From positions 1 to 60,518 of the IMG/VR virus record IMGVR_UViG_3300042539_002213: a stretch of 60,518 nt of DNA; one strand, written 5' to 3'. Below the pieces are notes generated by a model, which was not told where the DNA came from, ran no database searches, and saw only the letters and a program-made list of their open reading frames with translations. Source of the DNA: a virus. The position numbers and the translations under genes are program-made. Below, in pieces: positions 6,651-58,796 of this stretch; positions within the stretch are counted from its first letter, which is position 1; every line of letters begins with the position of its first letter.

Positions 6651-6655
6651 TTTTC

Positions 6656-7255: not shown

Positions 7256-7505
7256 TATTTATTCCACTAGTTGCTGGGACATAGGTCAAAGTCAAATAAT
7301 AAACACCAGCTGAAACCGACACACATCCTGGAACAGCTATTACGCTTTTACTCGAATCTACCCAAGAATTTACCTTATCAATTAAATCCTGTACAGTTTC
7401 CGCTTGAAAAACTTGCACAGAAACTAACTGATCGGGTAGCAAAAAATGGCGAAGGCTTGCTATAGGGAATTGTTGATCTGAAGGCAAAGAAAAACTATCT
7501 GCCAT
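7248..7505 (-). CDS. Small unknown protein
   Basis: 85 residues with short beta-strand stretches (QLVSVQVFQAE, SAGVYYLTLTYVPA) and no charged clusters, consistent with a small beta-sandwich or virion decoration-like fold, though this is only a guess. It overlaps both neighbours by 8-11 nt, so translation is probably coupled. Not recognised. Confidence 0.55.
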   Translation of the reverse strand: MADSFSLPSDQQFPIASLRHFLLPDQLVSVQVFQAETVQDLIDKVNSWVDSSKSVIAVPGCVSVSAGVYYLTLTYVPATSGINNA

Positions 7506-14569: not shown

Positions 14570-14601
14570 TAAGCTTTCTGCTTAGCTATGATTTTCTTTT
14601 G

Positions 14602-17721: not shown

Positions 17722-17735
17722 AGCAACTCCACAGA

Positions 17736-17764
17736 AGTGTAGCCGGTATTACACCGGCTACACT
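17736..17764. promoter_or_regulatory. 12-bp hairpin in the UvsX leader
   Basis: Perfect 12-bp inverted repeat (AGTGTAGCCGGT with 5-nt loop) between the acidic-tailed protein gene and UvsX, ending about 15 nt before the UvsX start. On the minus strand it is followed by TCTGTGG, not a U-run, so it is not a classic terminator. It could be an RNA-processing site, a stability element or a protein-binding operator. Confidence 0.5.
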
Positions 17765-17793
17765 GTAAAAAGAAGGGTTAATTAAAAGGTTAA

Positions 17794-19593
17794 TTATTGT
17801 TTGGGCTTAGAAGAACGTGCTTTAGCCCTAGAAATAGCTTTTGCGGTTGAAAGACTTTTCTCGACTTGGTCTTCAAATGTATCAGAGGTGTTATTTTCTT
17901 CAACCGGATCAAAATCAGCAGATACTTCATCCGAATCATCAAAACCATCATCCGATGCTTCAAACTGATCTTCAGTATCACCTTGCTCTAGTTCGATTTC
18001 GTCTCCAAATTCGTCATCAAAACTATCTACTAGTTCATCTGCCTTACTTGCAGGTGCCGATTTAATTTTTTCGGCTTTATTTTTAGCAGGCGATGTGTCT
18101 TCAGCAGAAAACTGGTCGTCAAACGAATCAAAACTTTCAATGTCATCTGGCACGGAATCTACTTCTGGTAATTTTTGTGCCGAAGCTTTTGACGTATTCT
18201 TTTTGACAACTGGTTCTGGTTGAAAAGCTTCTTCCTCTTCGGCTGGATCATTAATATCATCAGCAGCGTCAGGAATTGTTACTTGAGTTCGATTACGCAG
18301 CACAGCTTTTACCGAATCAAATTCCAAGTATTCAGGATTACTCATCCAGCATAGTTCTACAAGCTGCGGTACAAACCTAAAAGCTTTAGCAATCCACAAG
18401 CAACGTTCTTCGATAGATGGCTCGTAAAGCAAGAAAGAATCAGCTGGATCTGATTGGCCTTCCCGCCAGAAGAACAAATGCTTTGAAGTAATATTCTCAA
18501 CTTGCTCTGTAGTCAACGAAGGCCTGAGTTCGCCATTAGGGCCAGGAATCATCGTGGACAAGCTAACTTCATACTCAGTGATTTCCTTAGCGCTTTGACC
18601 TGATACATAAGTGCTATATGCGGAAAGCTGTCGGTTAAAGACATTGTAAGGGTCTTTTTCGCCCTTCTTTGTATCTTGCTTAGGCAAGAATTTATCTGGA
18701 TTAAAAAGGTGTACAAACACACCGGCTTTAACTGTCCTAGTCTGATGGCTGTAAATGCCGCATGGATCCCCGTATTTATACATCAACGAAGGATTCAAAT
18801 CTAAATTACCCTCAACGGCAGTTTCCTTCGGCTTACAAAACATTTGAAGTATTTTTCGACCAGTTGAGACACTAATTGGTGTAACTACCAGTGGGTCATC
18901 GGCGCGGTCACCTAGCGGCACTCCATCGCGGGCAATTTCTTTGTCTACAGACTTATTGCCGGACTCATAATGAATGTGTTCACGAACAAGGTCTAAGTCT
19001 GGACCATTATTGTAGACAGAGCCGATAATAAAATACTGCTGCTTCCACTTTGAAATAGCAGGCGTTTTACCTGCAAGCAAACAATTCCAATCAGAATCCC
19101 ATTTACGATTCTGTGCAAACCTGCCGCTTTTAGCTGCATCCTTGGCAACCTTACTAAATTTAATGTAAGGCTCCTCCCAAAACGAAATGCCATCTGCTAC
19201 AGACTCTTTATCTCTGGCAATGATATACGACACAGGGTTACAGTCCTTAGCGTCGTAATTGATGTTTTGCGCCGGAGTATTGTTTGGATGAATACCCGCA
19301 TAGGAACAAATGTAAACAGGTTCAGAGATAGAGACACCGCCAAGACCTGCTACATCGTTTGTATCCAATCTACCGTTTAGCAGTTTGGTTGGATCTTCTG
19401 GATCTAGCATATTCCAGATTCGAACAGAATAAGTACCGCCTTTACGGTAGCAATCTGGATTCAGTAGCCTAATGTTTTTGGCATTCGGATTAATAAAGTG
19501 ATTGTTCTTTGGTAGCAAATTTCCGCTGTCAGAATCCTTCGGCAACAAATTTCGCTTAACGGTTGACTTACTTCGTGGCTTTAGCCTGCTCAT
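17794..19593 (-). CDS. Acidic-tailed protein, single-stranded DNA-binding candidate
   Basis: 599 residues. The first 420 residues are a folded, mixed alpha/beta region with many aromatics. From about 450 the chain becomes highly acidic (repeated ESFDSFDDQF, DSFDDEFGDE, DDGFDDSDE) and ends in a basic tip (SRAKARSSKPKQ). Acidic tails are typical of phage and bacterial single-stranded DNA-binding proteins, where they contact polymerase, helicase and recombinase. It sits between UvsX and dTMP kinase/DNA polymerase, where such a protein is needed; no other SSB was recognised in the window. No OB-fold motif is evident by eye, so this is inference from tail and position. Confidence 0.45.
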   Translation of the reverse strand: MSRLKPRSKSTVKRNLLPKDSDSGNLLPKNNHFINPNAKNIRLLNPDCYRKGGTYSVRIWNMLDPEDPTKLLNGRLDTNDVAGLGGVSISEPVYICSYAGIHPNNTPAQNINYDAKDCNPVSYIIARDKESVADGISFWEEPYIKFSKVAKDAAKSGRFAQNRKWDSDWNCLLAGKTPAISKWKQQYFIIGSVYNNGPDLDLVREHIHYESGNKSVDKEIARDGVPLGDRADDPLVVTPISVSTGRKILQMFCKPKETAVEGNLDLNPSLMYKYGDPCGIYSHQTRTVKAGVFVHLFNPDKFLPKQDTKKGEKDPYNVFNRQLSAYSTYVSGQSAKEITEYEVSLSTMIPGPNGELRPSLTTEQVENITSKHLFFWREGQSDPADSFLLYEPSIEERCLWIAKAFRFVPQLVELCWMSNPEYLEFDSVKAVLRNRTQVTIPDAADDINDPAEEEEAFQPEPVVKKNTSKASAQKLPEVDSVPDDIESFDSFDDQFSAEDTSPAKNKAEKIKSAPASKADELVDSFDDEFGDEIELEQGDTEDQFEASDDGFDDSDEVSADFDPVEENNTSDTFEDQVEKSLSTAKAISRAKARSSKPKQ

Positions 19594-19623
19594 TTAAAAA
19601 TTCCTTAAAAAGTTAAACAAAAA

Positions 19624-20274
19624 CTAACCAATGTACTTGCAAATTTCGTCTGCTATTTCAGCAAAATCTTTTAAAACACCTGGATTTTCTTCTTTTGTGC
19701 AATTTATCGTTACAAGTGTAGTTGGCGGGTGCCAATTCATTAGTTGCGAATAAAAGCTCGAAGCATTATGTAATAAATCTCGCTTCGATTCAAGTATGTC
19801 CATTGTGTTTTCAGTGTAAATTCTTTTTTCTTTTTTAGCGATATTTTGTATGGCTAAATCAAGCGGCATTTTCAGATAGAAAATAAAATCCGGTACAGGA
19901 AGCCCCATTTGGTTGTATTCCAGGTCTACCAGAAATTTGATTATATCTTCCTCTTCTCCCTGCTTTGCAGCAGCGGCAGAATATACCAAGTTGCTCGGTA
20001 CATATCTGTCCGCAAAAACAAAGTCATTTGTGGAAATCGCTTGCTCTAGCCTAGGTTTAGACTCCAACCTTTCTAACGCAAAAATACTTGCGTGAACTCT
20101 TAACGGGAAAATACCGCCGTAATCTCCGTTAAGATACTCTCCAATTGTTTTACCCCAGGAAGAATTAGCATAATCCGGGTAAGAAAAGATTTTGCTATTA
20201 CCTTTCATCTGAGCCAGTTTTTTAGTTATTGTACCTTTACCTGACCCATCAATTCCTTCAATACAAATAAACAC
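19624..20274 (-). CDS. tmk: Thymidylate kinase
   Basis: 216 residues starting at GTG right after the polymerase stop. It has the P-loop IEGIDGSGKGT (residues 5-15), DRYVPSNLVYSAAAA (the DRY/H motif, about 92-106) and PDFIFYLKMPLDLAI (base-binding region). The enzyme phosphorylates dTMP to dTDP, feeding dTTP to phage replication. The lid region KKEKRIYTEN is Lys/Arg-rich. Downstream of DNA polymerase in the same operon, it supplies nucleotides alongside the dCTP deaminase/dUTPase gene at 40965. Call firm. Confidence 0.9.
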   Translation of the reverse strand: MFICIEGIDGSGKGTITKKLAQMKGNSKIFSYPDYANSSWGKTIGEYLNGDYGGIFPLRVHASIFALERLESKPRLEQAISTNDFVFADRYVPSNLVYSAAAAKQGEEEDIIKFLVDLEYNQMGLPVPDFIFYLKMPLDLAIQNIAKKEKRIYTENTMDILESKRDLLHNASSFYSQLMNWHPPTTLVTINCTKEENPGVLKDFAEIADEICKYIG

Positions 20275-20276
20275 GA

Positions 20277-23200
20277 TTACTTTTTCCAGCCTTTCTTTTG
20301 CTTGGTGTTAGGATTAAACGCAGGCGGTGGTTCAATTTTACGTGCAACCGTTCGGTTTTTTACGTCCGATACTGACCGTAGGTCTTTTGGACCCGAAGGT
20401 TTACTGTAATGGAAAACACAACCGTCAACAATACCCGTACCCGTAGGCAACTTGTACTGCTTTGCTTCCGCGTCGGATAGCTTCTCACCCCAGTGAAGCA
20501 TAACTTCACCCTCAATACCTAGGTAGTAAGGGCCGACACCCGTAGGCTCTCCCTCAAACTGACCGTCTAAATGCGTCGGATATATAGGTACTGATTTTCG
20601 CATGTACGTAGGTAAAACGTACGTGCAAACGTGCTTTACGTACTTATAGGGTACTTCCAGCAAAATAGCGTCGTGTACCTGAAGCAGTAGCCTGAACATA
20701 TCGTGTCCTTTGACTCTTTGTTTTTTCCGGTAGTCCATTAAGTAACCAAGCGCCCGGCTTACAACCGAAGCAATCATAGACTGAATCGGAAAATTCATAG
20801 CCTGCCGTTCAAACTCAGCTCGTATTTCAGGGTTAGATGAACTGTCTGGAAATCGCCTAAATCGTCCAAAGCAATTAGCAAGATAGCGGGGTACTTCTTT
20901 AAACTCATTGCCTTCAAAAACTACTCCGCTTCCACGCTGCTTACAAGTTTCAAAGAAAGGCTTAAGTCTTGGATAAGTCTGGAAAATAGCGTTAATTACA
21001 GCCTGTGCTTCATCAACTGTAATATCAATACCTTCTTCTTTAGCTGCAATTGCAATAGCCCGGGCTCCGCGACCATAGGCTATACCGAAAATAACAGACT
21101 TAGCTACGATACGCAGGTGTTTTTTACCTGCATTTTCAAGTCCGCTTTTAGTCGGAGCGCAATTTAACTTAAAAGCACGAACTGCCACATTGCTATGGAT
21201 ATCGTAAAAATTAGGATCGTCTTCAGGTAGCTGATTTCGTGTAGCATGGTCAATCATAACCGAATCACCAGCCATAACTGCCATTCCAAAAAGCTCAGCG
21301 CCTACATAATCTGCCTCAATTAAAACGTGACCAGGCGATGCTTTAAGCACACTTCTAAGGCTGTACTTATATTTTGAGCCCAGCAATCGTTTGTAATCAG
21401 GATCCCGCCTTTTACTGATATTCTGCAGGTTAGGTCTAGCACTAGACCACCGACCTGTTTCCTTAGTTTGATATATGTGCGTTCGGATTTTACCGTCGTC
21501 GCAGCAAGCAGAAGCTAATCCTTTATCGTACTCTAGGTTTCCATCATCGTCGTAGATAGGGTCTTCTGTTTTTTCATCTACGCAGGGTGGTCTGAGAACG
21601 TTCTTTAACGCCTGGTCCAAAAACCTAAAATCGCGAAACAGCCCTACAATTTCGGCTTTCTTTTTGTCAGTAACCGTTTGAGCCAGGATCGACAAAACTT
21701 GTTTGTTAGTACAAGGACTATGCAAACTTTCGGCTTTGCTCTGTTTTATCTCGTCCCAAGGTTTTGGCGGTTTACTGGTGTCAAAAATAGGAGTTAAACT
21801 AAGGCTAATTGCGTCTGCCGGTCTAATTCTTACGTGCTCACCTGTTTCAGGGTCCCGCTTTCCATTTAGCTGGTGCCCGAACAAAGCTTCTTTAGTTTGA
21901 ATCAAAGACCGAATATTAAAATCAGGCCAATTTAATCTTTTCCTAATATCGGCTTCTAATTCTGTTCTTGCCTCCATGAACCTAGCTGTCAGAAAATCTA
22001 TTCGACCCCTGTCTAGCTTTATACCGTTTTGATGTATATCTAAAACTGCAGGCGTAGCTATTTGAGATTCCCAGAATGCTTCCCTACAGCAGTTACCATC
22101 GTAGTCGCTATCCAGCAAAGGGCTTAGCTTGTGGTATAACCGCAAAGTAACGTCTGCATCGTACATACCGTACGGCAACAGAATATTATCCGGACACTCG
22201 CCGTAACCCTCTAATTCCGCATCAGATAATCCATTTTGTTTGCAGTAATTAGTTTTCCACTCTTGAAGTTCTTTATCGTACCTTGGGCAGTTTAAATACC
22301 TTGCTGCAAGAAGCTCTAATTTGTAATTAGCTGTTTCCTCAATCGCATGGCACATCAAACCAGTATCCGCACCCCCTTCATATTTTGTACGATACCAAGC
22401 GGGAACAGTATCTTCAGGAGTAAAACCGTCAGCAAAGTATGTCTTAAATAATGCGAGCGATCCTTTAGGTGCCTCATCTAAGGAAGTCAGCTGTAAGTCG
22501 TAAAGCTTACACGAAAAGCAGTCTTGTAGATTTAATCCTGCAGCTTCTAGCCACTCTAAGTCAGCATTAAAGAAATGCCCTACTACTCTTTTTCGCTTAA
22601 AATTAAACTCAACATCAGATCCATCATGCCGTTTAGTTTCAAGCTTACCGCCTTTAAAGAAGGTATTGATCGCAGCTAAAACAGATTCGTTTGTTAGAGC
22701 TAACTCCTCGTTAACTGCACCTCCGGCGTGATGTAATATAACACCTATAGCGTGCTTGGGTTTCCACGCTATTTGAATAGTACGCATGTAAGATCCTTTA
22801 TTTACAGGATGCTTACCGTGCCACTCGGCGTCGACTGCAATTACGGATTCAAGCGGATCGTAGTCGCTGTCTATTTCCCCTAGCCAGTACAGCAAATCAT
22901 CAAAAGTAGAAACAACCGTGTGCTTTATATCGGAGTCAAAACCTACGTCTTGGCCTCGGGCTAGATTAACAAAAGCAGCAACACCTGCCTCAAGTGAGCG
23001 TATAGACGATTGATCCCTCAACGTTTGTCTCGGGTGTACCACCGTCATCACAGAAGCTTCTTTCCAGGAATTTTCAACCTGAGCTTCATTTAAAGCGTAG
23101 TTGTATTTGTATTTTACAACCTTGCCCATCATATCATTTACACTATGACCATCTCCAAGCAAAGCTTTGCTTGCATCTGTACCTAGGCAAAGTATGTAAT

Positions 23201-23798
23201 CAGGCCGAACAATCTTTATTTCGTGTTGAAGTAAATAAGCTCCGTCTTTAACCCACTGTGCTCTGAAATTGGTCTTAAAGTTCGGAGGCATAAACTTCAC
23301 CACGTTGGTGACGTATATCTGACTAATCTTAGGCATTTTAAACTGAGTCAGCAGCTCTAAAAGCAATTTGCCATCAGCATCAATAAGACAACGTTTATTC
23401 TTTAATTCAGTCTGCCAAGGGTTTTTACCTATAATCATGACCTTTGCTGGTCGTGGCCCTGTGCCAGACTCGCCACCCCATATATGTCCCGGTAAAAACG
23501 CGGCGTCCTTTGTCTGGTAAGCGGCTATTTCTACAGGTAAAACAAATTCACTGGATCTAAGTGCATCTTTGACCAGGGAGTGCAAAAAGTCCAAATCATT
23601 GCTGCGACCTACAGCTTCCGCGTGAGCCGTAAAAGCACTACCGGCATAAAGCGTTGGCATGTGCGGAGCATCTAAAGGAAATATGTCATTGCCGGTTCTA
23701 ATTGCCTGCTCTTTAGACAAGGCAAGTTGCTGTGCTTTTATATTCTTAACGCCACCTGCAACGACATTGGCCCCTAATTTCTGTATTTTCCTAGCCAT
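20277..23798 (-). CDS. polA: Family A DNA polymerase with N-terminal uracil-DNA-glycosylase domain
   Basis: 1173 residues. Residues about 100-290 form a UDG-superfamily domain: VMIIGKNPWQTEL at the family-4 GExPG position, QIYVTNVVKFMPPN, and TVVHPRQTLR at the HPS motif. The first motif has lost the catalytic Glu (GKNPW), so it may bind without cleaving. Then a proofreading domain: AVDAEWHG (Exo I), GHFFNADLEWL (Exo II), YGMYDADVTLRLY (Exo III). The polymerase follows: motif A LIEADYVGAELFGM, motif B RIVAKSVIFGIAYGRG, motif C LLQVHDAILLEVP. It is the replicative polymerase of this phage. UDG-polymerase fusions are known from some large phages such as SPO1, so the fusion is rare but not new. 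The start overlaps the primase stop. Confidence 0.9.
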   Translation of the reverse strand: MARKIQKLGANVVAGGVKNIKAQQLALSKEQAIRTGNDIFPLDAPHMPTLYAGSAFTAHAEAVGRSNDLDFLHSLVKDALRSSEFVLPVEIAAYQTKDAAFLPGHIWGGESGTGPRPAKVMIIGKNPWQTELKNKRCLIDADGKLLLELLTQFKMPKISQIYVTNVVKFMPPNFKTNFRAQWVKDGAYLLQHEIKIVRPDYILCLGTDASKALLGDGHSVNDMMGKVVKYKYNYALNEAQVENSWKEASVMTVVHPRQTLRDQSSIRSLEAGVAAFVNLARGQDVGFDSDIKHTVVSTFDDLLYWLGEIDSDYDPLESVIAVDAEWHGKHPVNKGSYMRTIQIAWKPKHAIGVILHHAGGAVNEELALTNESVLAAINTFFKGGKLETKRHDGSDVEFNFKRKRVVGHFFNADLEWLEAAGLNLQDCFSCKLYDLQLTSLDEAPKGSLALFKTYFADGFTPEDTVPAWYRTKYEGGADTGLMCHAIEETANYKLELLAARYLNCPRYDKELQEWKTNYCKQNGLSDAELEGYGECPDNILLPYGMYDADVTLRLYHKLSPLLDSDYDGNCCREAFWESQIATPAVLDIHQNGIKLDRGRIDFLTARFMEARTELEADIRKRLNWPDFNIRSLIQTKEALFGHQLNGKRDPETGEHVRIRPADAISLSLTPIFDTSKPPKPWDEIKQSKAESLHSPCTNKQVLSILAQTVTDKKKAEIVGLFRDFRFLDQALKNVLRPPCVDEKTEDPIYDDDGNLEYDKGLASACCDDGKIRTHIYQTKETGRWSSARPNLQNISKRRDPDYKRLLGSKYKYSLRSVLKASPGHVLIEADYVGAELFGMAVMAGDSVMIDHATRNQLPEDDPNFYDIHSNVAVRAFKLNCAPTKSGLENAGKKHLRIVAKSVIFGIAYGRGARAIAIAAKEEGIDITVDEAQAVINAIFQTYPRLKPFFETCKQRGSGVVFEGNEFKEVPRYLANCFGRFRRFPDSSSNPEIRAEFERQAMNFPIQSMIASVVSRALGYLMDYRKKQRVKGHDMFRLLLQVHDAILLEVPYKYVKHVCTYVLPTYMRKSVPIYPTHLDGQFEGEPTGVGPYYLGIEGEVMLHWGEKLSDAEAKQYKLPTGTGIVDGCVFHYSKPSGPKDLRSVSDVKNRTVARKIEPPPAFNPNTKQKKGWKK

Positions 23799-38197: not shown

Positions 38198-38476
38198 TTA
38201 GTAGAATTTAGATTTTTTTGTGACGGTATCGTACCCCTTGCCGCTGCCACCAGTCCAGCCGTAATAACCGTTTCCCCAGCCAACATCGTTGTCGTCTGTA
38301 TTATCGGTACCACGGCTGCATCCGTCAGAAGTATCTAGACTGCTTCCATGTCCGTTGCCGATACTATCACCGCAGAGCCAACCATCACCACCTCCGTCGA
38401 TACCACACCCGTAGGGTTTTCCGTCGCCGTTGCCGCGACTATCACCTACCGGCATAAAAAGTTTAGTTTTGCTCAT
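38198..38476 (-). CDS. Gly-rich low-complexity protein A (GYDTV family)
   Basis: 92 residues, ATG coupled to the upstream stop (ATGA). It starts MSKTKLFMPVGDSRGNGDG and consists mainly of Gly, Asp, Asn and Ser with a few Cys and Trp; it ends GGSGKGYDTVTKKSKFY. The start (FMPVG) is shared with the gene at 38473-38739 and the end GYDTV with the gene cut by the window end. The DNA is built of 6-bp-like GNG repeats. Function unknown; such sequences are flexible and can phase-separate or bind metal through Cys. Confidence 0.6.
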   Translation of the reverse strand: MSKTKLFMPVGDSRGNGDGKPYGCGIDGGGDGWLCGDSIGNGHGSSLDTSDGCSRGTDNTDDNDVGWGNGYYGWTGGSGKGYDTVTKKSKFY

Positions 38477-38739
38477 TTGTATTTAGCCTTTTTTTTATTT
38501 ATGACTGCTGTAACAGTTTTTAACCCTGAGCTTTCTACATCGGTATTGTCTAGTACGTAGCCTTGACCGTCGTTATCGTAACCACTCCCGTAGCCATTTC
38601 CACAGCCACTGCCGTTATCGTAACCGCAGTGAAATCCACATCCTTTACCACTGCCATCGTCGTAGATATAGCCGTAACCTGTGCCTGCGCCGTGCCCGTA
38701 TCCGTTGCCTACCGGCATAAAGCGTTTAATTGTAGTCAT
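38473..38739 (-). CDS. Gly/Tyr-rich low-complexity protein B
   Basis: 88 residues starting MTTIKRFMPVGNGYGHGAG; Gly-, Tyr-, Asp-rich central part and a non-repetitive C-terminal 25 residues (NTDVESSGLKTVTAVINKKK). It shares FMPVGxxxGxG with the downstream gene. ATG after AGGTAAAGAT. Codons vary within the repeat, so the protein repeat is under selection or old. Function unknown. Confidence 0.6.
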   Translation of the reverse strand: MTTIKRFMPVGNGYGHGAGTGYGYIYDDGSGKGCGFHCGYDNGSGCGNGYGSGYDNDGQGYVLDNTDVESSGLKTVTAVINKKKAKYK

Positions 38740-44122: not shown

Positions 44123-47100
44123 ATGACCTCATCTTACGAAGAAATTAAAAACGCCAGAATGACGGCAAGTCAAGTTCTGGCTGCCGAACAGGCCCATGAT
44201 CCCTATGCAATTAGCGAAAATAAGCTGCTAGAGACAGCTATTTCCCAGGGTTACAGGCCGATATCTACTAGTAACGTTACAGACAGACGGCTGCACTTGG
44301 CAAAGTTTATGCTGGCAGATTCAGGGTATCTGACTTTGCAACCGCTTTTGCCTTTGCTTTTGTCTATCCGTGGTAAACCTTATCACTTACACGATCACTT
44401 TCCTTTTGCTCCTTTCTTTAGAACGAGAATGGCGCGAAAAACATTGTTAAAAACGGGCCGCCAAGTGTCGAAAACACTTAAAAAAGATTCTGAATTTAAT
44501 CGGGTTTACGATACATTTGGAAGGCGATACGCTCTACCGGATATTCAACCGGGGCTTAAAGTCCAATCATTAGACACTTCTAATTTTCAAACATGCGAAC
44601 AAGAAGTAGTCTGCCAGCACGCTAACCCAAGAAAAACCTGCTACTACGTGCGAACAAGGCGTGGTGTGGAAATGGAGTTAGCTGAAACGCATCCAATTTA
44701 TACCTACGAAGGATGGACTGCTATTTCAGAGCTAGAAGTAGGCGCACGAATCGCACACGTACGACAAGGAGGTAGATTTGGTCAGCTAAAAATAGAACAA
44801 GACAGAGTCTGTATTACGGCATACATGCTTGGAGACGGTTCATTTCGAGGTAATTATAGTTTTACAGCTGATAGAAACTCACAAGCTATTGTAGAGATGC
44901 GAAACTATTTAAAAGATTTTCGAGAGTACCCTAAAGAAGGAAGTACAGCTAACTCTCTAGTTCTTAATAAAGACCACAAAATTTATACTTGGGCAAAACA
45001 AGATAACTTAAACGGAAAGCTTGCACATGAAAAACACATGCCAGATTGGGTTTTTTTACTGTCTAGACAAGATACGCGTGTGTTTATTGAAAAACTTTGG
45101 GCTACAGACGGTATGGTTAAACCAACCAAAAATAAAGCCACAATAAGTTATACTTCTACGTCTAGATCTTTAGTCTATGACCTTAAATCTTTGCTTTCAA
45201 AGTTTGGTATACCTGTATCTATAAAAGAACGGCAGGGTGCTTATCGAAAGCTAACCGGTGAAATTGTTAGGTGTCGACGTTATTGGGTGCTTAGGGTAGA
45301 GACTCAAGAAGGGTGGCAGAAATTTTTTAAAGAGTTTTCAGTTCCGGACAAACCTAAATTTGAATTACCTAAATTAAAGTCAAACAACAATCGCTATACG
45401 ACACCTATTCAAATCAGCAGTCTTATAGCTGAAATAGCCGGAGAATGTCGTGGAATTAATAGTCACGGTGAAAACGCAACTTCACTTTTTAAACACAAAC
45501 TTAGAGTTAAACCTAAATATGCAGTTTCAAAAGAAAAGCTAAAGAAATACTTAAAGTTTTTTAAAACTCAGCGGGCAGATCATCATAAATTAAATGAATT
45601 TGAAAAGTATGTAAGTAACGATATTGACTGGGATGAAATTGTTGAAATTCAAAATATAGGAGAACACGAGTGTATAGACATTGAAGTAACTAACACTCAC
45701 AACTATCTGCTAGATGGAATAGCTTCTCATAATTCAACGTCACTTGCAGCTCAGGGAGTTTTGTTCTCAAACTGCATCCCGTACTTTAGCACGTTGTTTT
45801 TGACCCCGCTTTTTGAAATGATACGACGGTTCTCCCAGAACTACGTAGCACCGTTTATTGAAACCAGTCCTGTAGGCAAGTTGTTTACAGATGAAAAAAC
45901 TATTAACAACGTGCTACAGCGGTCATTTAAGAATCGGTCTCAAATGATCTTTTCTTTTGCTTACTTAGATGCTGAAAGAACACGGGGTATCTCTGCAGAC
46001 AAAAATTGTATTGACGAAATTCAAGATATGGATATTTCGTTTCTACCAATTATCCATGAGACAATTTCTGCATCCAGAAGCTGGGGTATTATCCAGTACG
46101 CAGGCACACCTAAGACACTTGATAACACGATTGAAAGGCTTTGGATTGACAGTTCCATGGCCGAATGGCTTATCAAATGCCCGCACGGAGGGTGCGGACA
46201 CTGGAACATACCGGCACTTGAGCATGATCTACTAAAGATGATTGGCCCAGTGCATAAAGAAATTAGTGAAACTTGCCCGGGTGTGATTTGTTCTAAGTGT
46301 GCAAAACCTATTAATCCCAGACCGCCTTACCAGGGTGGAACAGGCCGATGGGTACACCGTCATCCGTCTAAACGCTGGAAGTACGCTGGTTATCACGTGC
46401 CGCAGCTAATCATGCCTATGCATTATGCTAGCGTAGAAAAATGGCAGATACTTGTTGATAAGATGAACGGTAAAGGCAATACGCCTATTCACGTTTTTTA
46501 CAACGAAGTTTGTGGTGAATCTTGGGACAGCGGCAGTAAACTTGTTACAGTTACCGATCTTAAACGAGCTGCATGCTTGCCCTGGGAAAACAAACTAGAC
46601 GAAGCTCAAAATAATATCGAAGGCTATCTTTATAGGTTTGTTTCGGTCGACTGGGGTGGTGGCGGTGTAAGTAACGGTAAAAGCGATTTAGCTTTGCAGT
46701 CTTACACTTCTATTGCAGTGTGCGGCCTTTGTCCTGATGGTCGCGTAGATATTATTTACGGCTTTAGAAGCATGCACCCGCATGATCACATCCGAGAAGC
46801 TAAGCTGATTCTTGGAATAATGGCAGCGTTTAAATGCTCGCACGTAGTTCACGACTACACAGGAGCAGGTACAGTTAGAGAAACTGTTTTAGTGCAAGCT
46901 GGATTACCTATACGCAACATTTTGCCTGTAGCTTACACGGGACCAGCTAAAGGTGGCTTGATTTTGTTCAAGCCAGCAATACCTAAGCACCCCCGGGCAC
47001 ATTATGCAATGGATAGAAACCGTGCGCTTAATTACTGTTGCCAGTTTATTAAAAGCGGCGTGATACGGTTTTTCAGATACGATTACAAAGGATCAGATGA

Positions 47101-47350
47101 CGTTGGCCTCTTGCACGATTTTCTAAATCTTATTGAAGATAAATCTGAATCTGGATCTGGAAGAGACACCTACAAAATTCTACGCGATCCATCTGGACCC
47201 GATGACTTTGCGCAGGCTGTAACGATGGGAACGCTGATGCTATTTCAAATGCGCGGTCAGTTTCCTGACTTATCTGCCTACGAAGATATTGAGCTATCCG
47301 ATGACGTTATAGTATCATCTCAAGGCATTAAAGATCTTGATTGGTACTAG
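44123..47350 (+). CDS. terL: Large terminase subunit interrupted by an intein
   Basis: 1075 residues. N-terminal extein 1-117 ends GRQVSK, the first half of a Walker A motif; residues 118-537 are an intein; residue 538 onward restores STSLAAQG, so splicing gives GRQVSKSTSL, the TerL P-loop. Further motifs: CIDEIQDMDIS (Walker B with catalytic Glu), VSVDWGGGGVSNG, VHDYTGAG and DPSGPDDFAQAV for the RNase H-fold nuclease. Mature length about 655 residues. It packages phage DNA with the portal. No strong ribosome binding site is seen before the ATG. It is on the plus strand, unlike the portal 40 kb away. The last 23 nt overlap the next minus-strand gene. Confidence 0.9.
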   Translation: MTSSYEEIKNARMTASQVLAAEQAHDPYAISENKLLETAISQGYRPISTSNVTDRRLHLAKFMLADSGYLTLQPLLPLLLSIRGKPYHLHDHFPFAPFFRTRMARKTLLKTGRQVSKTLKKDSEFNRVYDTFGRRYALPDIQPGLKVQSLDTSNFQTCEQEVVCQHANPRKTCYYVRTRRGVEMELAETHPIYTYEGWTAISELEVGARIAHVRQGGRFGQLKIEQDRVCITAYMLGDGSFRGNYSFTADRNSQAIVEMRNYLKDFREYPKEGSTANSLVLNKDHKIYTWAKQDNLNGKLAHEKHMPDWVFLLSRQDTRVFIEKLWATDGMVKPTKNKATISYTSTSRSLVYDLKSLLSKFGIPVSIKERQGAYRKLTGEIVRCRRYWVLRVETQEGWQKFFKEFSVPDKPKFELPKLKSNNNRYTTPIQISSLIAEIAGECRGINSHGENATSLFKHKLRVKPKYAVSKEKLKKYLKFFKTQRADHHKLNEFEKYVSNDIDWDEIVEIQNIGEHECIDIEVTNTHNYLLDGIASHNSTSLAAQGVLFSNCIPYFSTLFLTPLFEMIRRFSQNYVAPFIETSPVGKLFTDEKTINNVLQRSFKNRSQMIFSFAYLDAERTRGISADKNCIDEIQDMDISFLPIIHETISASRSWGIIQYAGTPKTLDNTIERLWIDSSMAEWLIKCPHGGCGHWNIPALEHDLLKMIGPVHKEISETCPGVICSKCAKPINPRPPYQGGTGRWVHRHPSKRWKYAGYHVPQLIMPMHYASVEKWQILVDKMNGKGNTPIHVFYNEVCGESWDSGSKLVTVTDLKRAACLPWENKLDEAQNNIEGYLYRFVSVDWGGGGVSNGKSDLALQSYTSIAVCGLCPDGRVDIIYGFRSMHPHDHIREAKLILGIMAAFKCSHVVHDYTGAGTVRETVLVQAGLPIRNILPVAYTGPAKGGLILFKPAIPKHPRAHYAMDRNRALNYCCQFIKSGVIRFFRYDYKGSDDVGLLHDFLNLIEDKSESGSGRDTYKILRDPSGPDDFAQAVTMGTLMLFQMRGQFPDLSAYEDIELSDDVIVSSQGIKDLDWY
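44474..45733 (+). mobile_element. Intein in the TerL Walker A loop, with LAGLIDADG endonuclease
   Basis: 420 residues, in frame. N-terminal splice block begins TLKKDSEFNRVYDT, so the first residue is Thr instead of the usual Cys/Ser. Block B is ETHPIYTYEGW (TxxH-like), the endonuclease has AYMLGDGSFRG and KLWATDGMVKP (two LAGLIDADG-type motifs), block F is ECIDIEVTNTHNYLLDG and the end is IASHN followed by Ser +1 of the extein. The penultimate His and final Asn support splicing. Class-3 WCT pattern is not evident because F retains Asp. A homing element inserted in an essential site of terminase. Confidence 0.85.
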
Positions 47351-52638: not shown

Positions 52639-53136
52639 TTAAACCTTAGTTGATTTTGCTTTCTTAGCCGGTGTGTCCACCTTGGACACTACGCCACTGA
52701 CGCTGGTGTTACCTTGCTTGGTTTCTTTTCCAGCTAAGCTTTGAAAAGTAATTTTACACTGATCCAAGTGACTTTTCATAGCTTTCTCGATTAAATCGGG
52801 AATAACCATTTGAGGTTTCTTGGACAATGCATCTCGAATAACAAGACCCATAACACCTTTGTCACCAAAGATCTGAGAAAGCCACTCTAGACTTTCCTTG
52901 GGATTTTTCTTGTTAGAGTCCAACTTTGAAGCGTACAGTAGTATTGCTTGGATAATGTAATCGCCAGATTTAAACTGCGGTGATGTTTCTCCTGCAGCCG
53001 CTTTAACAAGACTGTAATCCACATTTAAGGTTATATTTCCATCATAAGCTCCGGGTTGGACTTTTTCAGACATGCGCTCTTGCATTTTGTCCAGTAGGCG
53101 CTTTGTAGCGTCTATTTCAACTATACTCAGTTCCAT
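52639..53136 (-). CDS. Unknown protein
   Basis: 165 residues from ATG at 53136, GGAG seven bases before. Helical, with a basic Lys-rich tail (VDTPAKKAKSTKV). No motif recognised. It follows the small gene at 53117 and overlaps it. Confidence 0.5.
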   Translation of the reverse strand: MELSIVEIDATKRLLDKMQERMSEKVQPGAYDGNITLNVDYSLVKAAAGETSPQFKSGDYIIQAILLYASKLDSNKKNPKESLEWLSQIFGDKGVMGLVIRDALSKKPQMVIPDLIEKAMKSHLDQCKITFQSLAGKETKQGNTSVSGVVSKVDTPAKKAKSTKV

Positions 53137-53443
53137 AATAAAACTCCAGTTTTTCTTCAATGAAATTAATTTCGGCAGCTAGTGCCGCTTGTCTATTTTT
53201 AAAAGGCCCAAGTACAGGCCCGTCAAATATCCTTGCTTGCCATTGGCAAGGCCAACACCTAGTCCAGCTTGCCAAAAGCGAATCGTCCCTGACTCGCTTT
53301 CGGATTAAATGAAATAGCTGCCTAAGCACAGGGTTTACAGGCTCGATGTGGCTGACTCGGGTTTTACTGTGTAACCCAAGCTCTCGCGTTATATCACTTT
53401 CTAAAGCCTCAACCCTACCGTCTGTGTGAATAATTAGGCGCAT
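53117..53443 (-). CDS. Conserved phage/bacterial hypothetical
   Basis: 108 residues. VSHIEPVNPVLRQLFHLIRK then ASWTRCWPCQWQARIFDGPV and LGPFKNRQAALAAEINFIEE are blocks I recognise from short uncharacterised proteins of phages and bacteria. Compact and basic; function unknown. Confidence 0.6.
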   Translation of the reverse strand: MRLIIHTDGRVEALESDITRELGLHSKTRVSHIEPVNPVLRQLFHLIRKRVRDDSLLASWTRCWPCQWQARIFDGPVLGPFKNRQAALAAEINFIEEKLEFYYGTEYS

Positions 53444-54657
53444 GCTTTTTGTATTTTACGCCCTACACGATTGACTTTACGTAACTCTAATTCCTGCGCT
53501 GTAATTTTAGTTAGAAGCTCACCGAATGTCTTTTGAGCTGTCGACCGCGCGTAGTTGCTGTCGCGGATATTTTTAGTAATACCTTCAGGAGAATTACCAA
53601 TGTCGGTTAGTGTCTTTTGCACTTCTTCTGCTAAGTCTACGATTGGCTTGCCGTTTTCACCTAACATATTTTGAACGGCTGTAATCTTTTGAGCCAACCA
53701 AAGTAGATTGCTAAAACCGCTTTGAGTAAGCGATTTGTATTCATCGGTTTCGTACGGCTTAAGCTCCATGTATTCAGCTTCAGTCAGTACCAGCATCCTT
53801 TCTTTACCCACCTGCTTAAATCCGTTTTTAACCGGTACGCACTCTTGTAGAGTGATTTGAACATAACCGGCAGGTACATTTTCGTCATCCTTGTGTCGTT
53901 TAATTTCTCGAACTTCGGCGTTACGCAAGTTGTAATGTGGGTTATCTGAATTAGGTAAAAGCCTAATACGCTTGCCGCAGTTTTTAGCCACGGTATAAAC
54001 CATCTCTTTTAGCTCGTAGACAAGCTCACCGACTGCACCATCTACAGAGGCAGTTAGACGTTGTTCAGCTTGCTTGGCTAATTTCTCTGCAGTAGCAGGA
54101 GCCACATTTGCCAATGTAAACGTAGCGTCGTAAGGCTCGATTCTAGGTACGTCACACGAAATAGAATCTGCCAACTCTTTTGCGCTAGGATATTTCTTTT
54201 CGACAATTGCCCAGTCTTTACCTAACTTAATACGGTCGCTTTCTTTGATTTTTTCGTAATTGGAATCCTCAGCGACTCTAGCACCCCAGGCTAAATATTG
54301 ATCCCTAACAGCATTAAATCGCGTTAGAAATTCATCTACGCGAGCTGCTTCAATCAAATATGAGCCCGGTACTTTTTCTGGCTTTAGATTTTCTGCATCG
54401 GCTGCAGTTCCCACAAGCGTGTACTCAGGAATTGTAAACTCATCTCGAATCGTGCTTAGCATACGCTTAAGCTGGGTGCCTTCTTGAATCAAAGGTTCAC
54501 TTGAAGCACCTAAGATTGCATAAGAACCACGGATTACTTTGGAATCCAAGTCTTGGGTTTGAGCCAGGATATTTTTGGTTTGCTCGGTAAAGCCTACCGA
54601 AGAAGGTAGCCAGCCGATGGTGTACTTAACAGTACAGTATGTGATTGTTTCACTCAT
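53434..54657 (-). CDS. Unknown protein in the Ycf46 operon
   Basis: 407 residues, helical. Long coiled-coil-like stretches around 100-210 (ATAEKLAKQAEQRLTASVDG) and again near the end (ITAQELELRKVNRVGRKIQK). It follows the AAA ATPase in the operon. It may be the protein partner or substrate of the ATPase. I could not name the family. Confidence 0.5.
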   Translation of the reverse strand: MSETITYCTVKYTIGWLPSSVGFTEQTKNILAQTQDLDSKVIRGSYAILGASSEPLIQEGTQLKRMLSTIRDEFTIPEYTLVGTAADAENLKPEKVPGSYLIEAARVDEFLTRFNAVRDQYLAWGARVAEDSNYEKIKESDRIKLGKDWAIVEKKYPSAKELADSISCDVPRIEPYDATFTLANVAPATAEKLAKQAEQRLTASVDGAVGELVYELKEMVYTVAKNCGKRIRLLPNSDNPHYNLRNAEVREIKRHKDDENVPAGYVQITLQECVPVKNGFKQVGKERMLVLTEAEYMELKPYETDEYKSLTQSGFSNLLWLAQKITAVQNMLGENGKPIVDLAEEVQKTLTDIGNSPEGITKNIRDSNYARSTAQKTFGELLTKITAQELELRKVNRVGRKIQKACA

Positions 54658-54959
54658 TGATTTTTCTCCGTTTGAGGTAGAAGGTAACTAACCGCTATTT
54701 TCTGCGCTAAGTGGTACTTCCAGTTGTCCGTACATTTGCGCGTCTCGAATCTAGACATGATAAGTAACGCACGACTTTTTCTATGTAACTGAATCGTACC
54801 TTCGTATTTCCAGTAATCTTTTCCCACCCATTTATCTTTATGGTGGAATTTAATTTTTGTAGGAGCGTATAGCTCGTTGCTTTCATCCCACGGCGCTCCG
54901 TAGAGGACTTTATACTCGTCATAAGTATTTCGTCCTCTACGGATTAAAATGTTTGCCAT
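54654..54959 (-). CDS. Small unknown protein in the Ycf46 operon
   Basis: 101 residues: MANILIRRGRNTYDEYKVLY and KWVGKDYWKYEGTIQLHRKS, aromatic, basic. It lies between the ATPase and the 407-residue protein and overlaps the latter by 4 nt. Not recognised. Confidence 0.5.
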   Translation of the reverse strand: MANILIRRGRNTYDEYKVLYGAPWDESNELYAPTKIKFHHKDKWVGKDYWKYEGTIQLHRKSRALLIMSRFETRKCTDNWKYHLAQKIAVSYLLPQTEKNQ

Positions 54960-54967
54960 AAATTACC

Positions 54968-56773
54968 TTATGCTGCAGATTCGTCAGCCTTTTTAACCTT
55001 ACGTGTTACACGCTTAGCTTCGGTTGCCAGAGCAGTTACGCCTTGTCGTTTATCGTGCTTAAACCGTTGACCGGTCTCAGCGCAAATACAACCTGCACTT
55101 TCAGCCCACTTAAGCAAATTATCCATCTGTTCTTTGTTCTTTTCGTAAGACGGTGTAATCCACTTAGAGGCTTCTACGAGATTGACGCGCTGCATTTCGG
55201 CAAGTCGACAACAAGCAGAAATATCGGCTGGAGTCCAGTAATCATCCTTAGGAAGCGATTGGTTTGGCAGATTATGCCGTTCCATATACATTTCCCAGGC
55301 ATGGTTCTTAGCCTCTGAGCTTGGAAACCCAACAAAGAACAAAGCGTCAACGCGACCAGAACGAGTAACCTCGTCAGGAAGATTAGCGATGTTATTTGCA
55401 GCCGACAAAATAACGCAGCTATTTTGATCGTTAAACCAGGTAAGCAGCGTACCGAGCATACGGTTTTCCAGTCCACCGGCTTCACCACTAGAGCCGCTAG
55501 GCAAAAAGCGTTGAAACTCGTCGATAGCCAAAATACCACCAATTTCTTCTACGGTGCGTAGCATGCCTGCTAGAAGCTTGTCAGTTTCACCCACCCACTT
55601 TGAATACAGATTTGCAGCCTGCATCGTAGAAAGCGGAAGATTAAACTGCCCCGCGCAGCATTTCATTGTCATGCTTTTACCGGTACCAGGAACACCTAGC
55701 ATAAGCACATGCTTAAGCTTCGATCTAGAAGGTACGTTATCTCTAAAGCCATTTGTAAGAAATGACTTTAGCCCGTTAAGGCCGATAACCGAATCAAACG
55801 TGTAGAAGTTACGCTCAGGTCGATATAGCTTATCAAACTCCGTACGCAGCATCGGATCTAGCCACTTTTCGACTTTTTTATCGTCTTGAACGTAGCTGAT
55901 TTTTGCTCGAATTTCTTCGTGCGAGACATGCTCCTCGGCAATCAAAGTCATGTCAATCGCGTCACGAAATTCTTCAACCTTATCTGGATCAGCCCAGAGC
56001 TTAATATTAGTCTGGAAATCTGGAGACCAAACATCAAGCTTGGACGCTCTAGCCAAATGCTTTGCTTTTTTACCAAACAGAAACTGTGGATCAAAAGCAC
56101 CCTTTTCGGCTAAAGCTTCAGCACCGTACTGCTTAAGCTTAGTTCGGCTAAGACCAGCAGTTGCAGAAATAGCGCTAGGTGTAACCGAAGTTTCTGCATC
56201 CAGGTCACTAAGTAGACTTTGACGCTCATCGTTATCTGGCAAATTGTGAGCCAGTACTTCGAAGTGCTCTACCAGTTCAGGTGGAAGCTCAACGTCTGGT
56301 GCAGACTGTGCTAGTAAATATACGCGAGCATTTTGACCCTCACCGATAAGCTTTTGCACTTGTGAAAGCAAAAACGAATCGACCTGTCCTGAGCTTTGAC
56401 CGTTTGGAAAAAGCCAGCGGTCAAAGTTCTTAATGAAGATAACAAGCTTCTTTTCGTCCTCGCTTGTTAGCTGGTTTTCCTGCTCAAGGTTAATTCGCAC
56501 TCGTGCGGCATTAATTGCAAAGTCCATCGCAGCATAGAGCGTAGCTTTTTGCGGCCCGAATTCATCTTCGGACAGTTTTACCGTTTGACCTTGAATATCA
56601 ATAAGGCCGTCAACAGCATCCCAACACAAAAGGGTAATTCCGTTTACCCCGTCTACTTCTCGGTTTTCAACCGCATGCGAAAGCAGCTCTACATATACGT
56701 CGTCGGGCTCAGCCGATGTAATCCACAAACCAGCTTGACCGGATGCCAAATACTTGGAAATTGTTGAAATCAT
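54968..56773 (-). CDS. Ycf46-like AAA+ ATPase
   Basis: 601 residues. N-terminal domain 1-330 with SGQAGLWITSAEPDD and LLCWDAVDGLIDIQGQ, as in Ycf46. AAA+ core from about 330: Walker A GVPGTGKS (360-367), SKWVGETDK (pore-loop region, 391-399), Walker B ILAIDEF (413-419), sensor I VILSAANN, and the Arg finger region TRSGRVDALFF. Ycf46 proteins are found in cyanobacteria and algal plastids, often next to Ycf35 (DUF1257) and DUF2997 genes. Those two partners lie immediately upstream here. The ATPase may remodel a protein target. Start overlaps the DUF2997 stop. Confidence 0.8.
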   Translation of the reverse strand: MISTISKYLASGQAGLWITSAEPDDVYVELLSHAVENREVDGVNGITLLCWDAVDGLIDIQGQTVKLSEDEFGPQKATLYAAMDFAINAARVRINLEQENQLTSEDEKKLVIFIKNFDRWLFPNGQSSGQVDSFLLSQVQKLIGEGQNARVYLLAQSAPDVELPPELVEHFEVLAHNLPDNDERQSLLSDLDAETSVTPSAISATAGLSRTKLKQYGAEALAEKGAFDPQFLFGKKAKHLARASKLDVWSPDFQTNIKLWADPDKVEEFRDAIDMTLIAEEHVSHEEIRAKISYVQDDKKVEKWLDPMLRTEFDKLYRPERNFYTFDSVIGLNGLKSFLTNGFRDNVPSRSKLKHVLMLGVPGTGKSMTMKCCAGQFNLPLSTMQAANLYSKWVGETDKLLAGMLRTVEEIGGILAIDEFQRFLPSGSSGEAGGLENRMLGTLLTWFNDQNSCVILSAANNIANLPDEVTRSGRVDALFFVGFPSSEAKNHAWEMYMERHNLPNQSLPKDDYWTPADISACCRLAEMQRVNLVEASKWITPSYEKNKEQMDNLLKWAESAGCICAETGQRFKHDKRQGVTALATEAKRVTRKVKKADESAA

Positions 56774-56970
56774 TATTGCTTGATCCTTTCTGCGATCTTT
56801 TGTTCAGGTAGACGAAATTCAGGCTTAAATTCTTGGCTTTCAGGCTTTTCACCAATTAGTGTGTCTTTAAGTGGCTGCGTTGCTTTTACGCAACTTCCAC
56901 CTGTGTAGCCCGTAGCCTCGATGCCCACAGCACCATCTTCTTCGATAATGATACGAATAGTTTTATCCAC
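56773..56970 (-). CDS. DUF2997 protein
   Basis: 65 residues with GTG start, AGGAAG six bases before. KTIRIIIEEDGAVGIEATGY then TGGSCVKATQPLKDTLIGE match DUF2997 (strand-turn-strand with GxSC and PL motifs). In bacteria this small protein accompanies Ycf46-type ATPases and DUF1257. It lies between the two here, each within a few bases. Function unknown. Confidence 0.75.
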   Translation of the reverse strand: MDKTIRIIIEEDGAVGIEATGYTGGSCVKATQPLKDTLIGEKPESQEFKPEFRLPEQKIAERIKQ

Positions 56971-56972
56971 AA

Positions 56973-57671
56973 TTATCTTCCTTTCACTTCGATAACGATT
57001 CTTCCGTCTGGTAGCGTACGCTTTTGCATTTGCTGATAAGCCGGATTGCGATTAGCCATTTCACGTTGGATAACTCTTTCGGCGGCTCTTACGCTGTAGC
57101 TCTGCTTAAGCTCATTTGCCCAACTGTCTACTCCGGCTTTGGATTTGTGTGCACCTAAGCCCTTGGCTGACAAAAGACCATTACCTTGAGCGTAAAAGTC
57201 CGTGAGCATTACGTACTCACCTTTCCTAAATGGATGCGGCACAAGGCCAATCTCATAGGCACTCTTTTTGTTCAGCTCTGGTCTGTAACGAATACAGTAT
57301 TTAGCATCCTTGCTCATTTCTTCTGTTGTAAGCTTGGTATACGCAGCCTTAACAGCTTCGTTCTGAAGCAGCTTTCGCTGTTGCTCTAGATTCCACGGAT
57401 TAGTTTCAAGATCCAGGATATTTTCTGGAATCTCAAAACCCATAGATTTTGCAAGCGCTCTTACATCAACGCCTTTTTCTTTTAGCCTGTGGGCTAAAAC
57501 TGCTTGGTAAATACCTGGAAGTGGGTGATCGCCAACAAGCCTACCGTTATCGGTAATCCAAGTGCGGTAAGTTTTACTTTCAATTAGCTCAAGCTCAGGG
57601 CATTGAGCTTGAACAACTGCTTTAAGCGCCGTGATATCTTTAACGCAAAAACCATTTACTAAGTGTGACAT
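56973..57671 (-). CDS. Ycf35 (DUF1257)-like protein
   Basis: 232 residues, ATG after TTAGGAGACAAAA. C-terminal region: GLVPHPFRKGEYVMLTDFYA, LKQSYSVRAAERVIQREMAN and LPDGRIVIEVKGR, matching DUF1257/Ycf35 (GF..., L.D..., Q.Y..., DGxI). The N-terminal 100 residues are helical with LLQNEAVKAAYTKL. First gene of the operon that continues with DUF2997 and the Ycf46-like ATPase; a terminator hairpin lies just upstream. Confidence 0.7.
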   Translation of the reverse strand: MSHLVNGFCVKDITALKAVVQAQCPELELIESKTYRTWITDNGRLVGDHPLPGIYQAVLAHRLKEKGVDVRALAKSMGFEIPENILDLETNPWNLEQQRKLLQNEAVKAAYTKLTTEEMSKDAKYCIRYRPELNKKSAYEIGLVPHPFRKGEYVMLTDFYAQGNGLLSAKGLGAHKSKAGVDSWANELKQSYSVRAAERVIQREMANRNPAYQQMQKRTLPDGRIVIEVKGR

Positions 57672-57693: not shown

Positions 57694-57719
57694 TAAAAAA
57701 AGCCGACTTTTGTCGGCTT
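57694..57719 (-). terminator. Intrinsic terminator before the Ycf35 operon
   Basis: On the minus strand AAGCCGAC AAAA GTCGGCTT makes an 8-bp stem followed by TTTTT. It ends the secreted-protein gene at 57739. Only 22 bp remain before the next ATG, so operon expression needs read-through or an unseen promoter. Confidence 0.85.
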
Positions 57720-57738: not shown

Positions 57739-58029
57739 TTATCTGCAGCACCGTCGCGACCGAAGCAGCGGTCGCTTGACGGTAGTTACTGCGCTGCTAA
57801 CTGTACGATTAGCAACGCAGCCTGCAGTTTGCACAACGTTTCGCGTTGTGCAGGCCACTTCTTGCGTAACGCCTGCTGCAAACCCTACGGCAGCTTCTGC
57901 CACTTGTACTACCGGCGAGGCTACAGCTTGCACGGTACTTCGAACAGGCCTATTGCATGTTCCGCTACTGCAATCTTGCGCGTAAGCGGTAGAACTCAAA
58001 ACCAAAACAGCCAAAATTGCCTTCTTCAT
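57739..58029 (-). CDS. Small secreted Cys-containing protein
   Basis: 96 residues. MKKAILAVLVLSSTAYA is a clear signal peptide with cleavage after AYA, leaving about 79 residues (starts QDCSSGTCNRPVRSTVQAV). Low-complexity Val/Ala-rich, four early Cys/two final Cys. It would be exported to the periplasm or outside. No known domain. Confidence 0.7.
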   Translation of the reverse strand: MKKAILAVLVLSSTAYAQDCSSGTCNRPVRSTVQAVASPVVQVAEAAVGFAAGVTQEVACTTRNVVQTAGCVANRTVSSAVTTVKRPLLRSRRCCR

Positions 58030-58796
58030 TATTCTTCCTCGTTTCCTGCCCTAGATACAATTTGCTGTAGCTGACTTACTACAGCGGACGTTGAACCGTT
58101 GCTCAATGGTAGCACCTTTAGCTGATCCATCAAGCCCTGCATGTTCTCCAGGTAAACCGTACGTAGCTCACCTGTCTTTTCTTGTTGCATACTGTAAATA
58201 GCTGAATACATCTCTGGATCGTCTGCATATTCTAAATCGACTTTCCCGGAAGCATCCTGTGTAAATGCAAAACGCAACACATCAAAGGGTTTAAGTATAC
58301 CCTCCTCTTTTAGCACTTGGCTAATATATTCCCTAATCTCAGCAGAAAATTCTGTATCTTCTGGATCCTCGTTAGGGGGGTATAGCAGCAAAGCTTCTGT
58401 GATTCCAACAAGCATTTCACTAGCGTCTGCAGGCTCAAACTCATCGGGTTGAAACTCGTCGCCAGCTAAAATGTTACAAATCTCTACAAAACGGGTTACG
58501 TCTTTATAGAAGTAATTTGTCGTTAGAATCGTAATTGCCGCCATTATTTTATCAAGTGTGATTTTTGGCAGCTTTAATTGAAAATCCTGTTCTATTTCTA
58601 ACCTTATTGTTTCTGGAGCCCAGTTAAGTAGAGCTGTACCGTAGTGATCCAGTAGCATCAAAATCAAAGGAGTCGCGTAAGATTCTTCAGCAAGCAGAAG
58701 CGACCTTTGTACAGCTTTAGCTGCCAGAGGTTGGCTTAAAGTACTGTTTGCCTTTTTAATTGCTGTCTGCAGAATCAAGCTTGCGGCTTTGTCCAT
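58029..58796 (-). CDS. Unknown protein
   Basis: 255 residues, helical, acidic. LQTAIKKANSTLSQPLAAKA, ITLDKIMAAITILTTNYFYK and YSAIYSMQQEKTGELRTVYL; ATG after GAGAGAAAATTAA. Probably a helical structural or assembly protein. Not recognised. Confidence 0.5.
   Translation of the reverse strand: MDKAASLILQTAIKKANSTLSQPLAAKAVQRSLLLAEESYATPLILMLLDHYGTALLNWAPETIRLEIEQDFQLKLPKITLDKIMAAITILTTNYFYKDVTRFVEICNILAGDEFQPDEFEPADASEMLVGITEALLLYPPNEDPEDTEFSAEIREYISQVLKEEGILKPFDVLRFAFTQDASGKVDLEYADDPEMYSAIYSMQQEKTGELRTVYLENMQGLMDQLKVLPLSNGSTSAVVSQLQQIVSRAGNEEE

Follow-up and report, generated by a model that had tools for sequence, protein, structure and literature searches.

The gene block and its surroundings

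The window analysed here is the whole of positions 1 to 60,518 (60,518 bases) of the IMG/VR virus record IMGVR_UViG_3300042539_002213. It carries a block of six genes on the minus strand, from 57671 to 53117, with an intrinsic terminator ahead of it. Five of the genes encode a DUF1257/Ycf35-like protein, a DUF2997 protein, a Ycf46-type AAA+ ATPase, a DUF3150-type protein, and a protein of an unnamed family that we call SHEPVN after its motif. The features, with the evidence for each, are as follows.

57700..57719, minus strand: intrinsic terminator, shortly before the start codon of the DUF1257-like gene (hairpin and T-tract)
56973..57671, minus strand: DUF1257/Ycf35-like protein, 232 residues, with a clade-specific helical insert at about residues 51-117 (profiles, AlphaFold)
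56773..56970, minus strand: DUF2997 protein, 65 residues, GTG start, conserved G[YF]xGxxC motif (PF11211, alignment)
54968..56773, minus strand: Ycf46-type AAA+ ATPase, 601 residues, a degenerate N-terminal domain and an intact AAA core (PF00004, phrog_8638, hhalign, motifs)
54654..54959, minus strand: optional 101-residue gene of no known family (clade comparison)
53434..54657, minus strand: DUF3150-type protein, 407 residues (Foldseek, hhalign, hmmsearch)
53117..53443, minus strand: SHEPVN family protein, 108 residues, unnamed family (tblastn, alignment)

A first-pass annotation, made from the sequence alone, had listed five of these open reading frames (ORFs), and all five were found in place on the minus strand. 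The edges it drew around the module were right in part: the 407-residue gene belongs inside, but the true fifth partner is the 108-residue gene at 53117-53443, which lay beyond them. Spacings between the six genes range from +8 to -10 nucleotides (nt). The DUF1257-like and DUF2997 genes are separated by 2 nt, DUF2997 and AAA overlap by 1 nt, and AAA and the 101-residue gene are 8 nt apart. The 101- and 407-residue genes overlap by 4 nt, and the 407-residue gene overlaps the SHEPVN gene by 10 nt.

Five further IMG/VR contigs (L001-L005, up to 204,794 bases) share the block at 60-80% identity and a sixth relative, L119, at ∼50-58%, giving a clade of seven contigs including the window. Across this clade, identity is 60-72% for the module genes and 44% for the neighbouring primase. 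L001-L005 have at least one extra small ORF between DUF2997 and AAA, while no ORF separates these two in the window and L119. Members of one small gene family are found at several sites in these phages (window 38473-38739, L001:245-517, L001:4835-5086), one of them in that position in L001. The 101-residue gene, earlier proposed as an added partner or substrate, turned out to be optional: it has a homologue in L119 (38% identity) and none in L001-L005, and its product has no Pfam or PHROG match.

The terminator that had been noted right before the operon was confirmed at 57719-57700. It consists of AAGCCGACAAAAGTCGGCTT and a T-tract, with 28 nt left before the start codon. Terminators of other sequence occupy the equivalent position in L001, L003 and L004. 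In L003 and L004 the differing hairpin leaves barely more than its T-tract and the ribosome-binding site, and in L001 the hairpin stands ahead of an inserted gene instead. A position that stays constant while the sequence changes suggests function. Because there is no promoter space behind the terminator, transcription of the operon would depend on read-through or on a promoter that overlaps the hairpin. The controlled read-through suggested earlier is compatible with this arrangement, and these signals fit expression of the block in the window phage as a single operon that is transcribed by reading through a conserved terminator. Further upstream, a 255-residue protein of no known family (window 58029-58796) is among the best conserved of the region, with ∼80% identity to L001 and 69% to L119, and exceeds the module genes in conservation.

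Family assignment of the five proteins

The DUF2997 protein gave a significant match to PF11211 (E 1.2e-10), its 41.5 bits exceeding the Pfam gathering cut-off of 24.1, which bears out the earlier call. The AAA protein likewise scored above the cut-off for PF00004 (E 2.5e-22, 80.2 bits, cut-off 21.2) and matched phrog_8638 (E 5e-37). Its Walker A (GVPGTGKS, residues 360-367) and Walker B (ILAIDEF) motifs are intact, and the pore loop LYSKWVGETD, the second region of homology and an arginine-finger segment RSGRVD are present. The full-length protein, including its degenerate N-terminal domain, aligned with Ycf46-type relatives over 480 columns (hhalign E 3e-39) in a reference set that included AAA proteins of Nostoc and Manganitrophus. 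The assignment to Ycf46-type AAA+ ATPases is therefore sound. A KWVGE pore loop is typical of threading motors such as katanin, Vps4 and p97.

Walker A and Walker B were found in the AAA homologues examined, with their order permuted in two and Walker A degenerate in phage Tunturi_3 alone. The permuted cores belong to Tunturi_3 gp103 (L108:2237-3832) and the IMG/VR contig L120 (L122, positions 13000-20000 of that contig). In both, the Walker B segment (DEIEK..LTWMQER or DEIEK..LLTYMQDR) precedes Walker A, which reads GVPGVSKS in Tunturi_3 and is intact, GPAGSGKS, in L120. Segments of the AAA profile run 5-268, 346-386, 285-343 and 387-516 in L120, and the order in Tunturi_3 is identical. Since the permutation was seen in two different phages, an assembly error is unlikely.

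The DUF1257/Ycf35-like call was right but remote. The window protein gave no PF06868 match at the Pfam gathering cut-off, hence "DUF1257-like", and was reached only through profiles from intermediate sequences. A profile that excluded the window clade and drew its fifteen DUF1257 proteins from plasmids, cyanobacteria and other phages matched it by hmmsearch (E 2.6e-6, Z = 8184) and by hhalign (95%, E 3.4e-8). A prior comparison with DUF1257 proteins had given E 5e-5. By profile homology the protein thus belongs with accepted DUF1257 proteins. The L120 protein serves as a bridge, sharing 42% identity with the annotated DUF1257 of Manganitrophus and aligning with the window protein over 65 residues (E 8e-5). 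No relative emerged when contigs were scanned with the alignment of the phage DUF1257 proteins.

The Pfam model fails because the clade protein holds an insert of ∼65 residues in its middle (window 57321-57521) that other DUF1257 proteins do not have. The insert is helical in the AlphaFold model, which has a mean predicted local distance difference test score (pLDDT) of 82 and a predicted template modelling score (pTM) of 0.78. As a lead only, it appears reminiscent of a small XRE-type helix-turn-helix (VLAHRLKEKGVDVRALAKSMGF); a Foldseek search of the model returned weak, non-significant matches to HipB and ClgR. Fold searches of the PDB with the DUF1257-like and DUF3150-like models gave no significant match.

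The 407-residue protein had no sequence family match in Pfam, PHROGs or NCBIfam. There was no match to PF11348 at its gathering cut-off, and we therefore use the term "DUF3150-type". Its AlphaFold model is modest (pLDDT 65). When this model was searched against viral structures using Foldseek, with no family name supplied, a DUF3150 protein came out on top (E 3.6e-6, probability 1.00, 384 columns), and four further proteins of similar length had probabilities of 0.99-1.00. An alignment to a single DUF3150 sequence had not been significant; the fold search and a seven-member DUF3150 alignment (hhalign 93%, E 2.9e-7) settled the identity. With the DUF3150 profile, hmmsearch found the window protein at E 3.3e-5 and its relatives down to 2.1e-7 (L001). 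The protein is homologous to DUF3150 by fold and by extended profile, and the L120 member (411 residues) has an insert placed as in the window protein. The gene, previously suggested as an added partner or substrate, is a real partner. Elsewhere DUF3150 sits between a MoxR AAA gene and a VWA-metallopeptidase gene, and for that reason it can be viewed as an AAA-linked protein in its own right.

SHEPVN proteins share the motif RVSHxxPxN ... WTRxWxCxW ... GPFxxRxxAxxxE. tblastn located a relative in the Tunturi_3 phage (E 2e-11) and others, down to E 5e-13, in 582 records of plasmids, most of them from enterobacteria (of the IncC type where this was checked) or Vibrio. In the annotated loci SHEPVN lies within the same cassette. 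An eight-member profile found two members outside its training set, one in Manganitrophus (1.6e-8), directly behind DUF3150, and one on a Pseudomonas psychrotolerans plasmid (1.3e-33). SHEPVN corresponds to no family in Pfam, PHROGs or NCBIfam, and these three resources together with PADLOC gave nothing useful for the DUF1257-like, DUF3150-like and SHEPVN proteins.

Distribution among phages, plasmids and cyanobacteria

The complete set of five families is clustered in four distinct settings: the window clade, phage Tunturi_3, contig L120 and Manganitrophus plasmids. Four of the five, without DUF3150, are found on IncC plasmids, a Vibrio penaeicida plasmid and the P. psychrotolerans plasmid, where the DUF1257 and DUF2997 scores are weak (6e-4 and 5e-3). 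The triad of AAA, DUF1257 and DUF2997 occurs alone in the phages Rhodobacter RcDurkin, Pseudomonas SM1, Rhizobium L338C and Agrobacterium JP1, and in plasmids of Thermovibrio (on two strands) and Nostoc. In Stenotrophomonas DLP_3 and Vibrio SIO-2 the AAA gene is present and neither DUF1257 nor DUF2997 was recognisable. In phages of Rhodobacter, Pseudomonas, Rhizobium, Agrobacterium and Stenotrophomonas, the AAA gene adjoins genes of 201-243 residues, which on testing were not accepted as counterparts of DUF3150.

In three cases a single member led to the rest. L119 and L120 were found by SHEPVN and Tunturi_3 by DUF3150, and the other members were then located there. Among 8,184 ORFs, the DUF3150 and SHEPVN profiles matched solely at cassette or DUF3150 loci, and reversed-sequence decoys gave no match for any profile.

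The three families of the triad form one unit, as the first-pass annotation had it: they stand together in seven clade contigs, in unrelated phages and in plasmids. Its statement that they neighbour each other in cyanobacteria holds for the Nostocales accessory loci, of which 58/60 have DUF2997 and 50/60 the AAA gene as well, but not for seven picocyanobacterial loci with DUF2997-DUF1257 and no AAA gene within the locus. The role it proposed "in phage infection" is too narrow, as large plasmids also carry the module.

The names Ycf35, DUF2997 and Ycf46 originate in plastids and cyanobacteria, and a DUF2997-ycf35-fed7 cluster has been described in cyanobacteria (PMC4284462). On these grounds the genes might have been acquired from a cyanobacterial host as auxiliary metabolic genes serving photosynthesis or redox metabolism. 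We consider this highly improbable because most carriers have non-photosynthetic hosts (Pseudomonas, Rhizobium, Agrobacterium, Vibrio, enterobacteria and Tunturiibacter). In addition, none of the genes recognised next to the module encodes a ferredoxin.

A DnaB helicase or polymerase gene lies downstream of the module in SM1, RcDurkin, L338C and JP1, a primase-like gene is a neighbour in the window, and parA/parB are neighbours in the IncC and Vibrio plasmids. In most carriers, then, the module lies beside replication or partition genes. Together with its sharing between phages and plasmids, this argues against a role confined to the virion; a target in DNA maintenance or in taking over the host is favoured instead. 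A virion-assembly chaperone might still be imagined by analogy, as DUF3150 usually adjoins MoxR and VWA-metallopeptidase genes and the MoxR-VWA pair of jumbo phages has been proposed to aid virion assembly (PMC7824862). Such a role would be quite improbable here, given that both module types occur on plasmids, which have no virions, and that the genes recognised next to the window cassette include none for head or tail.

Three other genes were recorded in passing. In L120, a sliding-clamp-like gene (6552-7688, identified by eye) lies between DUF2997 and SHEPVN in the five-gene neighbourhood. In the window, the terminase large subunit gene (44123-47350) contains an intein that carries a LAGLIDADG domain, and the family A DNA polymerase (20277-23798, 1173 residues) has an N-terminal uracil-DNA-glycosylase domain in the same protein.

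A proposed remodelling machine and its relation to known systems

We think it probable that the gene products form a single AAA+ machine of mobile DNA, which would remodel proteins with the help of dedicated cofactors. The Ycf46-type AAA protein, with its intact core and a KWVGE pore loop of the substrate-threading type, would be the motor. DUF1257 and DUF2997, its constant companions, are best read as small dedicated cofactors, likely docked on the degenerate N-terminal domain of the motor. DUF3150 and SHEPVN would be further subunits or substrate adaptors in a subset of machines, the members forming a physical complex. In phages and large plasmids its task may be to remodel a protein complex, of the host or the replicon, that both kinds of element need; a complex involved in DNA replication or maintenance is the most plausible.

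Several points weigh against this proposal. No biochemical or genetic data were found for any module member. Four phage lineages and the Nostocales have the triad without DUF3150 and SHEPVN next to it, which means that a single fixed complex of five parts is not universal, and the picocyanobacterial DUF2997-DUF1257 pair lies away from any AAA gene. Gene blocks of phages and plasmids may also persist through shared expression timing rather than function.

The sharing between phages and plasmids has another possible explanation, namely counter-defence or host takeover, with the AAA machine taking apart a bacterial complex directed against phages or plasmids. Both kinds of replicon meet restriction and other defences, and the module is carried by phages as well as conjugative IncC and Vibrio plasmids and is optional in related genomes. 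Against this, no known anti-defence gene is present, PADLOC gives just a generic AAA similarity to IetA, and the chromosomal cyanobacterial copies would have no obvious need of such a function. We regard it as unlikely.

No description of the five-gene module was found in the open-access papers searched, which also yielded nothing on DUF3150 and three papers that mention DUF1257 or DUF2997, none of which deals with phages. DUF1257, DUF2997, DUF3150 and Ycf46 are known families; SHEPVN is named here as a new one. On balance the whole is slightly more likely than not to be a previously undescribed multi-component AAA+ machine of phages and large plasmids (in IncC without DUF3150), in which DUF3150 provides a link to MoxR-VWA systems and some phages use a permuted motor. 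DUF1257 (Ycf35) and DUF2997, long-standing unknowns of plastid and cyanobacterial genomes, now become testable outside cyanobacteria, as the compact, transferable module occurs in plasmids of bacteria that are easily handled in the laboratory and in cultured phages (Pseudomonas SM1, Rhodobacter RcDurkin and Rhizobium L338C). DUF3150 gains a second context. The module is also part of the backbone of IncC plasmids, a group that matters for drug resistance.

Among known systems, IetAS and SgiAT have an AAA+ core of the same broad class, and SGI1 has an AAA antitoxin of the SpoVK/Ycf46/Vps4 kind (PMC10954446). The window AAA core resembles IetA (PDLC02196 E 1.7e-12; NF042959 E 3.9e-10), which raises the question of a defence or toxin-antitoxin system that uses its AAA+ protein against competitors. 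However, the likeness is confined to the AAA core and lies far under the NCBI cut-off (39.4 versus 510 bits). The partner of IetA and its SGI1 counterpart is a subtilisin-like protease; no such IetS/SgiT gene adjoins the module, no protease match was obtained among the neighbours, and the partner families are entirely different. A defence or toxin-antitoxin system of this kind is improbable.

The MoxR-DUF3150-VWA(DUF2201) systems of plasmids and phages also place DUF3150 beside an AAA+ gene. Their motor is of the MoxR type, however, and a VWA-metallopeptidase replaces DUF1257, DUF2997 and SHEPVN, whereas the window AAA protein is of the Ycf46 type and no VWA family was detected among the scanned cassette proteins.

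The IncC backbone cassette near parB has the order AAA-109aa-DUF1257-DUF2997-377aa-SHEPVN, without DUF3150 (L104:4350-8475, L106:4350-8355). It is present in 59/5,426 complete Escherichia coli genomes, essentially all on plasmids, and its genes are mostly annotated as hypothetical. The 377-residue protein contains a TraA-like segment just under the NCBI cut-off (46.9 versus 50 bits); it was tested as a DUF3150 and rejected, an unrelated protein occupying that slot.

Cyanobacterial and plastid genomes have the same three families, Ycf46, Ycf35 (DUF1257) and DUF2997, and the Nostocales order DUF1257-DUF2997-AAA is that of the window. These loci are without DUF3150 or SHEPVN, and the DUF1257 of the window phage holds the additional inserted segment. 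Tunturiibacter phage Tunturi_3 has all five families in ∼5 kilobases (gp103-gp96), and differs in three extra small genes among the members, in its permuted AAA core and in the annotation of gp96 as an HNH endonuclease. On the Manganitrophus plasmid (CP114559) the five families are consecutive on one strand, in the order AAA-DUF1257-DUF2997-DUF3150-SHEPVN. Compared with the window, the AAA gene comes first there, and DUF3150 and DUF1257 are shorter, without the inserts of the clade.

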